Assembly: GCF_000969885.1 (NCBI RefSeq)
Contig: NZ_CP009501.1
Coordinates: 62,001 to 126,000, forward strand
Length of the DNA stretch: 64,000 bases
Direction: 5' to 3'
From: Methanosarcina thermophila TM-1
GTDB lineage: Archaea; Halobacteriota; Methanosarcinia; Methanosarcinales; Methanosarcinaceae
In this document: one piece after another, positions 15,999 through 22,182 of the stretch
How the letters are laid out: each line of letters begins with the position of its first letter
How positions within the stretch are numbered: the first letter of the stretch is position 1
Translations under genes and position numbers: made by a program
The notes under the pieces: model-generated
Databases searched by the model: none
Told to the model about the DNA's origin: nothing
What the model saw: the letters and a program-made list of their open reading frames with translations, nothing else

Positions 15999-16454
15999 AT
16001 GTTTGATGAATACGAGAAGAAGAGAAATTTTAAGAAGACTCCTGAGCCTCCAGTCAGCGATCTTAAGAAAAGCTCTGACAAACTGATTTTTGTGGTTCAA
16101 CGCCATGATGCACGTAATCTTCACTACGATCTACGCCTGGAGATGGATGGGGTTCTGAAAAGCTGGGCTGTGCCAAAGGAACCCCCTAAAGAAGCAGGCA
16201 TACGAAGGCTCGCTGTCGAGACTGAGGACCATCCTCTGGAATATGCCGATTTCGAGGGAGAAATCCCTGAAGGGGAGTACGGAGCCGGCACGGTCGAGAT
16301 ATGGGATAAGGGAACCTTTGAACTTTTGAAGCGTGAGGAAAAGGAAATTGTGGTAGCGCTTGAAGGAGAAAAACTGAGAGGGGATTATGTTTTGATCAGG
16401 ACAAAGTATGGGAAAGGGGAAAAAGGTTGGCTTTTCTTTAAAAAGGCTAACTGA
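15999..16454 (+). CDS. Stand-alone LigD-type 3'-phosphoesterase
   Basis: 151 residues that correspond to the N-terminal phosphoesterase domain of bacterial LigD. Diagnostic motifs are FVVQRHDARNLHYDLRLEMD (His and Asp/Arg metal and phosphate ligands), LKSWAVPKEP, VETEDHPLEYADFEGEIPEG (His ligand) and YGAGTVEIWDKG. The enzyme removes 3'-phosphate or a 3'-terminal ribonucleotide at primer ends, cleaning DNA ends for ligation. In bacteria it is fused to ligase and polymerase for non-homologous end joining. Methanosarcina carries it as a single-domain protein. No ku or ligase gene is adjacent. The stop codon lies inside the first unit of an 11-bp tandem repeat. Confidence 0.92.
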   Translation: MFDEYEKKRNFKKTPEPPVSDLKKSSDKLIFVVQRHDARNLHYDLRLEMDGVLKSWAVPKEPPKEAGIRRLAVETEDHPLEYADFEGEIPEGEYGAGTVEIWDKGTFELLKREEKEIVVALEGEKLRGDYVLIRTKYGKGEKGWLFFKKAN

Positions 16455-16549
16455 AGATTGGCTAAAGATTGGCTGAAGATTGGCTGAAAATGGGCTGAAG
16501 ATCAGCTGAAGATCAGCTGAAGATCGGCTAAAACTCGGCTGAAGCCCGG
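16451..16549. repeat. Nine tandem 11-bp units
   Basis: Nine consecutive units of exactly 11 bp with consensus CTGAAGATTGG (variants CTAAAGATTGG, CTGAAAATGGG, CTGAAGATCAG, CTGAAGATCGG, CTAAAACTCGG, CTGAAGCCCGG). The first overlaps the stop of the phosphoesterase gene. Unit length is not a multiple of three, so this is a non-coding minisatellite, sitting between that gene and the STAS-like/PIN cassette. Confidence 0.95.
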
Positions 16550-16678: not shown

Positions 16679-17068
16679 ATGAATAATAATCATATGGGGA
16701 TACTTACGGAAGAAAGGGTAAAAATCAATGTTTCTGAAACTGCTGGGGAAAACTGCTGCGTTGCCGCGCGTGATGGACAGAAGGTTTATAATAAAATTGC
16801 AGCTGCACTCTGCGAAAATAAGAAAATTGAACTTTCTTTTGCAGAGACGGCTGAGCTGACGCCTGCCTTTCTGAACTCAGCAATAGGGCAGCTTTATGGC
16901 TGTTTTCCCGCAGAACAGATAGAGAGCAGCCTTTTATTCACGGATATCTCCGATGAAGACGAGGTTATTCTTAAAAGGGTCATCGAACGGGCAAAAACCT
17001 ATTTTGAGCACGCGTATACCTGCAGAAAGGCGTTGAAAGACGTGCTTGGAGGAGAAGAGGATGCGTAA
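16679..17068 (+). CDS. STAS-like domain protein (DUF4325 type), partner of a PIN protein
   Basis: 129 residues. The stretch QKVYNKIAAALCENKKIELS, then FAETAELTPAFLNSAIGQLY, then GCFPAEQIESSL matches the DUF4325 STAS-like pattern: a beta strand, then a helix that starts after a conserved phrase like LTPAFLNSAIGQLYG. This family is usually encoded next to a histidine-kinase-like ATPase or a PIN/toxin-like protein and is thought to act in signalling or phage defence. Here the next gene is a PIN-domain protein and overlaps by 8 bp, so they form a tight operon. No ATPase gene is present. The protein may be the antitoxin or sensor of the pair; this is inference from arrangement. Confidence 0.75.
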   Translation: MNNNHMGILTEERVKINVSETAGENCCVAARDGQKVYNKIAAALCENKKIELSFAETAELTPAFLNSAIGQLYGCFPAEQIESSLLFTDISDEDEVILKRVIERAKTYFEHAYTCRKALKDVLGGEEDA

Positions 17069-17696
17069 GAGCATTCACCGTGCAACCGTTTATCCTGTGA
17101 GACGCCGCCCGAGGCTTCGCGCCGGAGCATCCAGACCGGCAGAACCTCTCCCTGTAAAAGAAGTCCATTCCATAGACGAATATGATTTTCCCGAAGGAAA
17201 AGGCTACTTCTTTGACACCAATATCTGGCTGTACATCTACGGCCCGATCGGCTGGCCTGACCCGAGGTCGGACGCCTACTCCAAAGCCCTGAAGGAAATC
17301 CTGAACTCAGACGGCACGATCTATATAAACTGCATGATAATCTCAGAATTCATCAATGCCTTCGCCAGAATAGAATTCAAGCAGCAGACTGATTTTACGC
17401 GGTTCAAGGATTTCCGAAACTCCCTTGCCTTCCGGGCAATCGCCCAGGATATTGCCTACAACGTGAGAAAAATCCTTAAAAGCACCCTTGCCTGCGACCC
17501 CGAACTTCAGGCAATAGACCTTCCAGAAGTCATGGACTTTTTCGAGCAAGGAAAATACGATTTCAACGACCTCCTCTTTGCCCAGATCTGCCGCGCAAAA
17601 AATATGGTTTTCGTAACCCATGACAAGGATTTCAGCGAACTCGGAGTCGAGATCCTGACCGCAAACGAGAAGCTGGTGAATACTGGAAGAAAGTAA
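17061..17696 (+). CDS. PIN-domain ribonuclease-like protein
   Basis: 211 residues from the ATG at 17061, which has GGAGGAGAAGAGG just upstream and overlaps the previous stop. The first 45 residues are basic and Pro/Arg-rich (HRATVYPVRRRPRLRAGASR). The PIN domain follows. It has FFDTNIWLYIYG with the first catalytic Asp, INCMIISEFINAF with the Glu, then YDFNDLLFAQICRA and VFVTHDKDF with two further acidic residues. The full acidic tetrad is present, so it should be an active metal-dependent RNase. The unusual basic N-terminal extension could bind RNA or the partner. It is co-translated with the STAS-like gene, which suggests a toxin-antitoxin or defence-like unit. Confidence 0.85.
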   Translation: MRKSIHRATVYPVRRRPRLRAGASRPAEPLPVKEVHSIDEYDFPEGKGYFFDTNIWLYIYGPIGWPDPRSDAYSKALKEILNSDGTIYINCMIISEFINAFARIEFKQQTDFTRFKDFRNSLAFRAIAQDIAYNVRKILKSTLACDPELQAIDLPEVMDFFEQGKYDFNDLLFAQICRAKNMVFVTHDKDFSELGVEILTANEKLVNTGRK

Positions 17697-17705
17697 CCGA
17701 TTTTT

Positions 17706-17838
17706 TTACTTTTGGGGCTTAACCTCAAGATAGAGTTCAATTGCTTTTTTCATTCTCCTGTTCAATTCGCCAAGAATTTTTGATTGTGTGTGGCAGCCTG
17801 GGAGTTCAGGTACAGAGGCTACATAAATTTCAATACTT
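17706..17838 (-). pseudogene. Remnant of a HicB-type antitoxin
   Basis: About 44 codons ending at a TAA (17706-17708) read IEIYVASVPELPGCHTQSKI followed by LGELNRRMKKAIELYLEV. This is the middle and end of the HicB partial RNase-H fold (canonical YVASVPELPGCHTQG...EEALENIKEAIELYLE). The N-terminal strand is missing and the frame begins after a stop with no start codon. No hicA gene lies nearby. It overlaps by a few bases the 3' end of the next relic. Confidence 0.75.
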
Positions 17839-18495
17839 CTTTAAATCTATTTTGTAAATGTGCTGCGGAGCGAACTGCTTTTTATCATTAAGAATGATCC
17901 CTCCGTTGTAGAACTGAAAATCAGGAAATACGGCAAAATAAACCACTGTTCCCAGTTTCAAGAAATACCCGGGAATCAATCTTTTGTTTGAATTTTTCTG
18001 AACCTGCTTGATGGAAAAATAACTTTGTGCCAGCCGAGATCCAGGCCGCCTCTCCCATCTGGAAAATTCTTCCCTTCAAAGAAATAAATACAATTTTCCG
18101 TAAATATCGAGTAGTCCAGGTCTTCCATCACTTCATACCTGAAAATCTTAATGATTTCCTGTGTCCTTTTATCCTTGAAATAGACGCAAAAGCCGATCTT
18201 TTACCTCCTCTCGGACCGATATAATACTCGTTTTCCGAACTTATCCTGCCTATTATTTGCTTAAAAACCCCTAAAAACCATAAATGCTCTATAGAGAAAT
18301 TCTCAATCAGATTTTCCTTAAGGCATCTTCCAGATGTCCAAAATTCTCTGGGATTTCATAATCCAGTTCTTCCGCCCTGGATAAGTCCAGATCTAAATAG
18401 GGTTTTTCAAACCGATTTTCATCAAAAATGACAAAATTACCTTTTCCAGTCCTTATTACAAAATAGTTTTTGTCCCTTAGCTCTTTAGACTGCAT
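17830..18495 (-). pseudogene. Decayed gene of about 225 codons with three frameshifts
   Basis: Four pieces in different frames join into one protein. They are 18495-18307 (MQSKELRDKNYFVIRTGKGN ... HLEDALRKI), then a piece reading FSIEHLWFLGVFKQIIGRIS, then one reading CVYFKDKRTQEIIKIFRYEV ... GGLDLGWHKVIFPSS, and a last piece reading GYFLKLGTVVYFAVFPDFQF ... KKQFAPQHIYKIDLKKY with a stop at 17830. All pieces follow in order on the minus strand with protein-like composition. I do not recognise the family. The first piece alone could pass for a 62-residue gene, but its continuation shows it is the N-terminus of a dead longer gene. Confidence 0.7.
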
Positions 18496-18987
18496 GGAGT
18501 AAAAATCAATTGAAAGATAATTTGGAGTGCGACCTTGCAGTTTTAATCGGTGCTTAGTTTTATATTCGGAAAAATTTCTTTCTTTAGAGTGACCCTGTGT
18601 TGAGAGTTCTTTGAGAAATTTGGGGTCGTTGATGAGTGGAAGCCAAACAGTATTAATTATGAAAGACAGTTGGCGAGGGAGTTAATAAATTTTTTTGATT
18701 TAGTTGTGAGTGGGAGTTTTGGGATGATTTTATTGGTTAATAGTTTCTATTCTAGATTTTTTACAGGAATAATGGTTCACGAAGTTTAATGATCTATTGG
18801 AAATTGAACTAATTCGAGTAAATAAAATTTTATAGGCTAAATAAAGTTGATGAATTTATTATAAAATAACTTTTTTATTAATCAGATCTCTTTATTGATT
18901 CTTTAATCTTTGGCTATAATATATATTATTATAATTCTCTATAAAAAAACCAAAAAATTTATTAATTTAGTAAGTTTCCCCGTATAC
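18496..18987. other. AT-rich intergenic region
   Basis: No ORF or RNA gene recognised. The last 150 bases are strongly AT-rich (for example the TATA-rich stretch at 18915-18950) and probably hold the promoter of the HNH nuclease gene. Confidence 0.4.
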
Positions 18988-19794
18988 ATGCTGCTTTTCA
19001 AAAATTCAGCTAAAACTATGGAAGGAGTTCTCAGTAACGCAAAGCATGCTACAGATGGGAAGCCACATTATGTCAAACCGGGCGATATAATATTGACAGC
19101 TCAAACTAAAAGCACGTTGTTGCCTGGACAAAAGCCAATAAGATGGATAATGAATTATGTGTCTTGTGAAGAAGATGTAAATAATCTAAGCGACAAAATC
19201 TGGGGTAAGCACTGGAGATATATAATAAACGGGAAAAACGTGAGATCTGTGGAGCCTTTCGATATAAACGATATAAAAGTTACTTCAAAAAATTACGATG
19301 CAGTCCAAACTTTTGCTATAGTTGAACCTGAAGATGAAGAAAAAGTGCTTAATTGGATAAACGAGCCTACAATCACTTATGCATATGATTCTGGTATCTT
19401 CTCCGAAGAATTTAAAGAAGGACAAATCCTAGATTACGATGAAGTAATACAAAAATTAGACTTGAAATATAGAAATACTCCTGAGTTCAAAGAAACTGTC
19501 ATTAATCTAATACAAAGACCTTCTCTACTATCTAATGCTATTAAAGAAAAATATGGATATAAGTGTATGATTTGTGGATATCCCGGATTTGTGAAAAAAG
19601 ATGGAGAAAAGTATGCAGAAGTTCACCATATGATAGAGCTAAATAAAAAAGCTCCAGAAACACTTCAGAGCTGGAATTTGCTAGTTGTTTGCCCACTTTG
19701 CCATAAGAAACTTCATTATGCAGAAGTGAGATCAGATTATTTAAATCCAGGATGGAAAATAGTGATTGATGGTGAAGAGCACATTATTAAGTAA
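18988..19794 (+). CDS. HNH endonuclease with an N-terminal PUA/EVE-like domain (tentative)
   Basis: 268 residues from the ATG at 18988; the open frame reaches 18910 but that part is AT-rich and implausible. The C-terminal 75 residues form a zinc-binding HNH domain: YKCMICGYPGF, EVHHMIELNKK with the catalytic His pair, and VVCPLCHKKLH. The N-terminal 130 residues (HYVKPGDIILTAQTKSTLLP ... IWGKHWRYIINGKNVRSVEP) form a beta-rich domain. It starts like PUA/EVE-type modified-base readers, where a GD.I...T pattern is common, but the resemblance is weak. Such fusions often are modification-dependent restriction enzymes. The gene stands alone and is AT-rich compared with neighbours, which fits horizontal transfer. 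HNH call strong, reader-domain call tentative. Confidence 0.8.
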   Translation: MLLFKNSAKTMEGVLSNAKHATDGKPHYVKPGDIILTAQTKSTLLPGQKPIRWIMNYVSCEEDVNNLSDKIWGKHWRYIINGKNVRSVEPFDINDIKVTSKNYDAVQTFAIVEPEDEEKVLNWINEPTITYAYDSGIFSEEFKEGQILDYDEVIQKLDLKYRNTPEFKETVINLIQRPSLLSNAIKEKYGYKCMICGYPGFVKKDGEKYAEVHHMIELNKKAPETLQSWNLLVVCPLCHKKLHYAEVRSDYLNPGWKIVIDGEEHIIK

Positions 19795-19861: not shown

Positions 19862-20170
19862 TCATAAAGATATCACTTCATTGAGAACACGTTTCCCAAT
19901 GTTGGGTTTAAGCCCTGTCCTGGTAACAAGGTCTACTTTCACTCCCAGCAGGTCACTCAGATAATACTCAAGTTCAATGTACTTAAGGAGCCCAGGAGTT
20001 TCATCAAATTCTACCAGAATATCAAGATCGCTTTCACCTGTTTGTTCCCCTCTTACATATGACCCGAAAACTCCGAGATAGCTCACGCTGTACTTTTCTC
20101 TAATCTCCGGCAGGTGTTGCCTGAGTATTCTTATGAAATAGTCAACATCTTTAAGTTGTTGGGAAGGCAT
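19862..20170 (-). CDS. Minimal nucleotidyltransferase (MNT/MntA-type antitoxin), orphan
   Basis: 102 residues with the pol-beta-type nucleotidyltransferase core YLGVFGSYVRGEQTGESDLD: GS motif followed by D-x-D, and a third Asp in VKVDLVTRTGL. MNT proteins normally sit next to a HEPN toxin (HepT) and inactivate it by adding AMP. No HEPN gene is found on either side, though a separate CBS-HEPN fusion occurs at 56.0-56.7 kb. The ATG is at 20170. The active-site acidic residues are intact. Confidence 0.88.
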   Translation of the reverse strand: MPSQQLKDVDYFIRILRQHLPEIREKYSVSYLGVFGSYVRGEQTGESDLDILVEFDETPGLLKYIELEYYLSDLLGVKVDLVTRTGLKPNIGKRVLNEVISL

Positions 20171-20673: not shown

Positions 20674-22182
20674 TTGGAATTAAAGTTCAATCTCAAGGCT
20701 TATTTTAAAACAAGTGCAGACCCCACTCCTGCAAAGGACACCATAGCTGCGCTTTTCGAAGAGGCAAATAAGACCCTTCTTACAAAAGGAGCGCCTGAAG
20801 GACAGGGAGCAAAGGTTACGGAATGGAAGCTCGGGGAGGATAGGATCGAGCTTGCGCTTGTATCCGGCAGGTATGTCAGGGTGCACGATGCGATATTCAG
20901 GCTGAGGAAACAGTTAGCTGAGGCTCTGGGAAAGAAATACAAGATCGGGATTCGCGGAATCGAGGTTGAATCCTTTATCATTCAGGTGCCGGCTGAACAC
21001 GAGCTCAGAATGCTGAAGGTACCCTACATAAAAGGCATGGAATACATAGAAGGTGGGATTCAGCTTGAGCTTGAGGTCGGGGAAACTGAGATGAAGAATC
21101 GGGTGCCGGACAGAATTCTCACGCTCCTTGAAGAGAAAATCGAGGCTTTGCAGTACGGGGCAAAAGCCGAGCACTGGAATTTGCTCTGGCAGAGAGAGCC
21201 TATGGAACACCCTTTCAAGGAAGACCCAACCCAGGCAATGATAAAAGAAGGCTGGATCAAGCGAGGTTCAAGCCGTGGGCAGTGGATCCACGGGCCGCAG
21301 TCCACAAGGATCTTCCGGACTTTCGAAAAGATTGTCCTTGAAGAGCTTCTTGAGCCTCTCGGATACAGGGAGATGATTTTCCCGAAACTTGTAACCTGGG
21401 AAGTCTGGATGAAATCTGGACATGCCAAGGGTGTATACCCTGAGATATATTACATATGCCCACCGAAGACAAGGGACCCCGATTACTGGGAAGAAGTTGC
21501 CGATTATTATAAGGTCACCCATGAAGTGCCCACGAAACTCATCAAGGAAAAAATCGGAGAACCCATCGGGGGCATGGCTTATGCCCAGTGCCCTCCTTTC
21601 TGGATGTATCTGGCAGGGGAAACCCTTCCAAATGAAGAGATCCCTATAAAGGTCTTTGACAGGTCAGGCACCTCACACAGGTATGAAAGCGGTGGAATCC
21701 ACGGGATCGAAAGGGTGGATGAGTTCCACAGGATAGAAATCGTATGGGTCGGGACAAAGGAAGAGGTAATAAAGTGTGCAGATGAACTCCATGAGCGTTA
21801 TGCACATATCTTCAATAATATCATGGATATTGAGTGGAGAAAAGCAAGAGTTACCCCCTGGTTCATGGCACAGGAAGGGCTTCTCGGGCTTGCTGAAGAA
21901 AACACTGTGGGAACTACGGATTACGAAGCCTGCCTGCCTTACCGTGGCCCTGATGGAGAGTGGCTTGAGTTCCAGAACGTGAGCATCAACGGAGACAAGT
22001 ATCCCAAAGGCTTCAATGTCAAACTCCAGTCAGGAGAAGAACTCTGGTCTGGCTGTTCTGGAGTGGGGCTTGAAAGATGGGCTGCGGTCTTCCTCGCACA
22101 GAAAGGACTTGATCCTGCAAACTGGCCTGAGGAATTCAGAAAGAGGGTAGGTGAGATGCCGAAAGGTATCCGCTTCCTCTAA
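20674..22182 (+). CDS. serS: Seryl-tRNA synthetase, methanogen type (type 2)
   Basis: 502 residues, TTG start. It attaches serine to tRNA-Ser. The sequence is of the rare methanogenic class, not the common bacterial type. The N-terminus is a compact alpha-beta domain instead of the long coiled-coil arm. The catalytic core has class II motif 2-like [20 protein letters not shown], a zinc-site region including [15 protein letters not shown] (Cys), [20 protein letters not shown], and motif 3 in [19 protein letters not shown]. The length matches the family. The gene stands alone, with AT-rich flanks. Confidence 0.96.

Follow-up and report, generated by a model that had tools for sequence, protein, structure and literature searches.

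A putative VapS–VapC pair without its kinase at a conserved core locus of Methanosarcina

In a 64,000-nucleotide stretch of the Methanosarcina thermophila TM-1 genome (hereafter the window; the genome is a single contig of 3.13 Mb), a small gene for a STAS-like DUF4325 protein runs into a gene for a PIN nuclease. Our comparisons indicate that the two proteins are homologues of VapS and VapC and that the pair is a derived, ATPase-less branch of VapKSC, the three-gene anti-phage operon of a kinase, an antitoxin and an RNase described in June 2026 (Chambers et al., EMBO J 2026; PMC13373217; PDB 9z7o). New here is a core VapS–VapC pair that has neither the kinase nor the phosphosite, within a system that is itself already published. 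In a single clade three changes appear together: VapK has been lost, the phosphosite of VapS has become proline, and VapC has gained an N-terminal extension. On balance, we regard it as probable that the pair is a domesticated module, namely the antitoxin and RNase arms of the partner-switching VapKSC system without the kinase arm.

In the Escherichia system, VapC is a toxic PIN RNase that is bound and inhibited by the DUF4325 protein VapS, and VapK is believed to act on VapS by phosphorylating an absolutely conserved Ser/Thr, S48 (PMC13373217). S48 lies buried in the 9z7o structure. The operon gives E. coli protection from phage Bas42; substitution S48A in VapS abolishes phage protection and S48E abolishes VapC binding (PMC13373217). 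The paper describes bacterial groups only, and its text makes no mention of an archaeal case (PMC13373217).

The features of the window on which the argument turns are the following, with positions counted from its first nucleotide.

15999–16454, plus strand: gene for a LigD_N-type 3'-phosphoesterase (PF13298, 142 bits), upstream of the pair, syntenic with it and outside the unit
16679–17068 from the upstream ATG (129 aa), or 16694–17068 from the conserved ATG (124 aa), plus strand: vapS-like gene (DUF4325/STAS-like)
16862–16864, plus strand: codon CCT (Pro62 in the 129-residue numbering) at the VapS phospho-acceptor position, placed by alignments
17061–17068, plus strand: 8-bp overlap of the vapS stop and the vapC start (PIN ATG at 17061, DUF4325 stop at 17066–17068)
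17061–17696, plus strand: vapC-like gene (PIN nuclease, 211 aa; PF01850)
17061–17207, plus strand: N-terminal extension of VapC, 49 aa, net charge +5, absent from three-gene VapCs
17214–17630, plus strand: span of the PIN active site, with D52 (17214), E96 (17346), D170 (17568), D188 (17622) and D190 (17628)
20674–22182, plus strand: serS (seryl-tRNA synthetase), the conserved downstream neighbour, named from sequence and not from a domain scan

PF14213 (DUF4325) matches the vapS product with an E-value of 1.3e-14 and 54 bits (cut-off 23), and PF01850 (PIN) matches the vapC product with 2e-10 and 42 bits (cut-off 23.6). Thus, the STAS-like and PIN cassette described by the sequence-only reading is real, as is its 8-bp overlap. 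The same short overlap recurs in relatives of the pair, and translational coupling of the two genes through it is likely. The motif MGILTEERV is common to VapS relatives, and the five residues that precede it in the window reading frame are absent from them; for this reason we place the vapS start at 16694, where the conserved start is probably ATGGGG. In the partner of the PIN gene DUF4325 was the sole domain found, with no DNA-binding domain of the VapB type (AbrB, RHH or HTH), and the NCBIfam VapC model reaches 17 bits on the window PIN protein, under its cut-off of 80. Neither PADLOC nor NCBIfam called a system for the pair itself (PADLOC 2.0.0 is older than VapKSC), and literature searched under the Pfam names DUF4325 and STAS-like gave no lead to a described system. 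The VapKSC identity surfaced through a PDB sequence match to VapS: the DUF4325 profile matches chain A of 9z7o (Escherichia VapS) with an E-value of 1.3e-21, and the PIN profile matches chain C (Escherichia VapC) with 1.1e-12. The earlier suggestion of a new toxin–antitoxin-like or RNA-targeting unit therefore stands as regards the kind of unit, which homology supports, but not as regards its novelty, the three-gene form having been published.

To judge from its residues, VapC keeps the complete site of a Mg-dependent PIN RNase. The five acidic residues listed above are invariant among 22–23 relatives (two alignments, A4 and A6), in agreement with the full acidic active site called from the window alone, and the best structural matches of the VapC model are VapC-type folds. 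The basic N-terminus, put at 45 residues in the sequence-only reading, corresponds to the 49-residue extension with its net charge of +5. Between 47 and 49 residues precede the first PIN strand in the Methanosarcina copies, and 63 do so in the sister genus (g5). The tail of core VapC proteins has a median length of 48 residues and a net charge of +7, although it is near neutral in g5, compared with a median of 19 residues and a net charge of −1 in three-gene cassettes. The gain amounts to about 30–45 residues, strongly basic in Methanosarcina. The first ~30 residues of VapC are modelled with low confidence (pLDDT about 50), and the extension is predicted to be largely disordered.

The window VapS is predicted to adopt a STAS fold. 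With Foldseek alone the model had no significant match; VIA-align matched STAS proteins, with Z-scores of 7.5 to RsbV and 6.8 to SpoIIAA, values that lie below 8 and are moderate taken alone. In the model the 129-residue protein consists only of the STAS-like domain and one long C-terminal helix, with no C-terminal wHTH, and its C-terminal region aligns with that of Escherichia VapS. Pro62 is the first residue of helix 2.

The three-gene arrangement extends well into the archaea. A PIN match in Kaistella has a third gene, for a STAS-GHKL ATPase, directly upstream of its DUF4325 gene, and the order VapK-VapS-VapC is found in archaea of the same family as Methanosarcina (L132, L133 and L134) as well as in more distant archaea (L158, with a split ATPase frame, and L159). 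These archaeal cassettes have previously gone unremarked. Outside archaea, three-gene cassettes occur on a Deinococcus plasmid, in many Bacteroidota (L072 among them) and on viral contigs; plasmid and phage collections contained almost no relatives of the pair. In PADLOC, VapK matches only the DrmA model, and weakly.

Several loci met in this survey are of separate interest. Two of the archaeal cassettes (L133, 4571–6425; L134, 5251–7144) adjoin type I methyltransferase genes, intact or truncated, and in L135, from a sister genome, all that remains is a VapS with Ala at the phosphosite and a VapK stub. In the Bacteroidota locus L265 (571–6161), VapS and VapC accompany a VapK decayed to a stub of ~18 residues between hsdS and a RhuM-like gene, the setting being a type I restriction locus. 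Genome G003 holds a truncated second copy of core vapS (L145, 4040–4351), ~64 kb from its intact pair. On a viral contig (L172, 2699–4342) a VapS-like domain with Met at the phosphosite ends an AAA+ ATPase-like frame, and no VapK or VapC was found nearby. Bacteroidota proteins such as L188, L190 and L203 are single chains of ~350–380 aa with an apparent wHTH, a GHKL ATPase and a C-terminal DUF4325, and apparently represent a fusion related to CapK-CapS in which the domains follow another order.

Within Methanosarcina the lack of an ATPase, remarked on for the window pair by the sequence-only reading, holds for whole genomes: searches of all 31 turned up no VapK-type kinase. A single VapK query had no match there, and a profile of 12 VapK members gave only matches of ~16–24 bits, confined to short ATP-binding stretches, almost all of which lie within larger proteins. 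As a positive control, a VapK profile recovers VapK in relatives that carry it.

The target residue of the kinase has gone too. In the alignment with 9z7o, S48 of Escherichia VapS falls on Pro62 of the window protein (S48 being chain residue 66 minus an offset of 18 residues, by our own count). In a survey of this position across 85 distinct DUF4325 sequences, all 34 distinct complete K+S+C cassettes have Ser or Thr (20 and 14, respectively), and all 29 kinase-less core pairs in which the site is present have Pro; one fragmentary MAG copy without the phosphosite region falls outside the latter count. Two solitary archaeal VapS copies have Ala, one of them L135, which lies beside its VapK stub in the gene neighbourhood of intact three-gene cassettes. 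Ser is kept in two kinase-less VapS lineages, L143 and L265/L266, the latter a case of recent decay. In ATPase-DUF4325 pairs without a PIN gene, which have another architecture, N, P and V are among the residues at this position, and the Ser/Thr rule is therefore limited to K+S+C cassettes. The core clade also conserves the residue next to Pro62, T61.

In the VapS tree, the proline-bearing proteins of Methanosarcina and its sister genus form one group (support 100/99) that branches within the three-gene VapS proteins of archaea (97/89). Because of this placement we take the two-gene state to be derived by kinase loss, and the kinase-less proline clade is a single evolutionary event. An independent-pairs test of kinase loss versus phosphosite loss came out in the predicted direction, at 3.5 versus 0 of 5 supported pairs, with a median p of 0.25 that is not significant because there are too few independent events; a collapsed Fisher test gave p 2.6e-4, a value that rests on distant solitary DUF4325 proteins and to which we give no weight. 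Since in Escherichia the S48A protein loses protection and the S48E protein loses VapC binding (PMC13373217), Pro62 rules out triggering of the VapKSC type.

The distribution of the pair is that of a core locus. Each of vapS and vapC is present in 26 of 31 Methanosarcina genomes (22 of the 24 of high quality), and the two genes are adjacent in all 26 genomes that have them, far beyond chance. The search for conserved STAS-like and PIN pairs that the sequence-only reading had recommended thus has a positive answer, and the observation it had named as damaging, a PIN gene conserved alone throughout Methanosarcina, is only half seen: the gene is conserved in those 22 good-quality genomes but never occurs without its partner. 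Two high-quality genomes, G018 and G025, are without the pair, which is therefore not essential; G018 keeps the phosphoesterase gene without the pair, and in G025 that gene is gone too. In 18 of 18 loci examined the 3'-phosphoesterase gene adjoins the pair, and the conserved block runs from a rubrerythrin-like gene through the 3'-phosphoesterase and the pair to serS (the last where the contig reaches), with the same gene order at the pair locus of g5. Pairwise dN/dS against the window genes is about 0.07–0.21 for vapS and 0.07–0.20 for vapC, close to that of the flanking genes. The pair locus is a vertically inherited, selected and non-essential core locus.

The notion of a variable region, also put forward earlier, fails for the pair, and so does that of a mobile unit: the two genes lie within a conserved block, and their evolution resembles that of the genes around them; variation is confined to the vapC–serS stretch, whose spacing differs between genomes. 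The flanking elements on which that notion drew do exist. An 11-bp tandem repeat (CTGAAGATCGG, 8.5 copies, 16451–16544) comes directly after the phosphoesterase stop codon, and a HicB-like C-terminal relic (...IEIYVASVPELPGCHTQSK...AIELYLEV), identified by eye, lies directly downstream of vapC on the minus strand (17703–17843). The variable vapC–serS stretch contains an HNH endonuclease gene (18910–19794, plus strand) whose product weakly resembles type IV restriction enzymes, and a solitary MntA-like nucleotidyltransferase is encoded at 19862–20170 on the minus strand (46.7 bits, where the MntA antitoxin model requires 60).

For the pair itself we computed homology, the active site, the absence of VapK, the loss of the phosphosite, the gain of the tail, synteny and purifying selection; binding, inhibition and release by phosphorylation are taken from the Escherichia homologues (PMC13373217), and we infer the function of the pair from these homologues. 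By analogy with Escherichia, VapS would grip VapC through its STAS domain, with the C-terminal helix reaching the active site and keeping it off RNA, and the window VapS most likely still holds the window VapC inactive. In VapKSC, phosphorylation by VapK of the Ser/Thr with which helix 2 begins would make the complex dissociate. Because VapK is gone and the acceptor residue is fixed as Pro, this route is inoperable in Methanosarcina and its sister genus, where the complex is expected to be locked by default and to have another route of release. The simplest candidate would be a shift in the VapS:VapC ratio through turnover or translation of VapS, as in ordinary type II modules, and the basic tail of VapC might contribute RNA or ribosome targeting.

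The leading alternative to such a locked complex is a housekeeping RNase whose VapS partner has ceased to act as an inhibitor. VapS would then be a structural or activating subunit, and the tailed VapC would process or decay specific cellular RNA, possibly with the 3'-phosphoesterase healing the ends. The near-universal presence of the pair in the genus, its synteny with the 3'-phosphoesterase and serS, its housekeeping-like dN/dS and the new conserved tail of VapC all speak for this account, which we hold to be possible though rather unlikely, as VapS retains in alignment the C-terminal region on which inhibition depends in Escherichia and G018 has the phosphoesterase without the pair. We are more sceptical of an active anti-viral or toxin–antitoxin unit in which infection unleashes VapC and VapS serves as a labile antitoxin. 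Although the homologous VapKSC shields E. coli from Bas42 (PMC13373217) and the archaeal three-gene copies adjoin type I restriction genes, the core pair is vertically inherited outside defence islands and mobile elements, and its sensor-kinase is missing; in Escherichia, S48A is enough to kill protection (PMC13373217).

That the phosphorylation switch still works, through T61 or a kinase acting in trans, we consider very improbable. T61 does adjoin the phosphosite and is conserved in the core clade, but many three-gene VapS proteins have Thr at this position beside a real Ser/Thr and others have Ala or Ile, so that the residue is not the acceptor in three-gene VapS; for a kinase in trans, no VapK-like candidate emerged from the 31 Methanosarcina genomes. 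Scarcely credible is the idea that the pair is a decaying remnant of a mobile cassette. Genuine remnants exist, as in L135 (VapS with a VapK stub), L265 (the ~18-residue VapK stub) and L145 (a truncated VapS), yet the active site is intact in every aligned core copy, and dN/dS is low over saturating divergence at a single conserved locus. Given the intact PIN site, dN/dS of ~0.07–0.2 and the same neighbours throughout, the pair is not a remnant in decay, nor does it belong to a variable region; decay was rejected on dN/dS and synteny.

The domesticated VapS–VapC module that we favour can be set against four known systems. With VapKSC it has in common the homologous VapS and VapC in the same order, the PIN site and the C-terminal region of VapS, but it has no VapK in the genome, carries Pro in place of Ser/Thr at the S48 position, has an extra basic tail on VapC and occupies a fixed chromosomal core locus. 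CapK-CapS likewise employs a STAS protein and the same broad switch logic; however, CapS has a wHTH and represses transcription (PMC13373217), whereas the window VapS lacks a wHTH and is paired with a nuclease. The resemblance to type II VapBC lies in the two-gene format, the toxin-type PIN protein with its VapC-like fold and the overlapping upstream partner gene, yet that partner is STAS-like and not VapB, and the locus is a vertically inherited core one and not accessory. Finally, SpoIIAA and RsbV share the STAS fold with the window VapS (VIA Z 6–7.5), and the family phosphosite lies at the start of helix 2, but the partner of VapS is a nuclease and no sigma or anti-sigma factor, and the phosphosite is Pro62.

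The pair thus amounts to a natural experiment in which a kinase and its target residue have been lost and the nuclease has been preserved under strong selection. It poses a question that is testable in the genetically tractable M. acetivorans: what role a toxin–antitoxin nuclease plays, and how it is released, after its trigger has been lost. In genome surveys, the residue at the S48 position, Ser/Thr or another, may serve as a marker that separates switchable from non-switchable VapS proteins. More tentatively, and with odds that we place somewhat short of even, an immune toxin switch may have been domesticated into core archaeal RNA metabolism, having lost its DNA-damage kinase and phosphosite, been kept throughout the history of Methanosarcina and acquired a basic tail that would retarget the nuclease. 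If true, the two proteins would form an RNase whose control input is new for STAS proteins.
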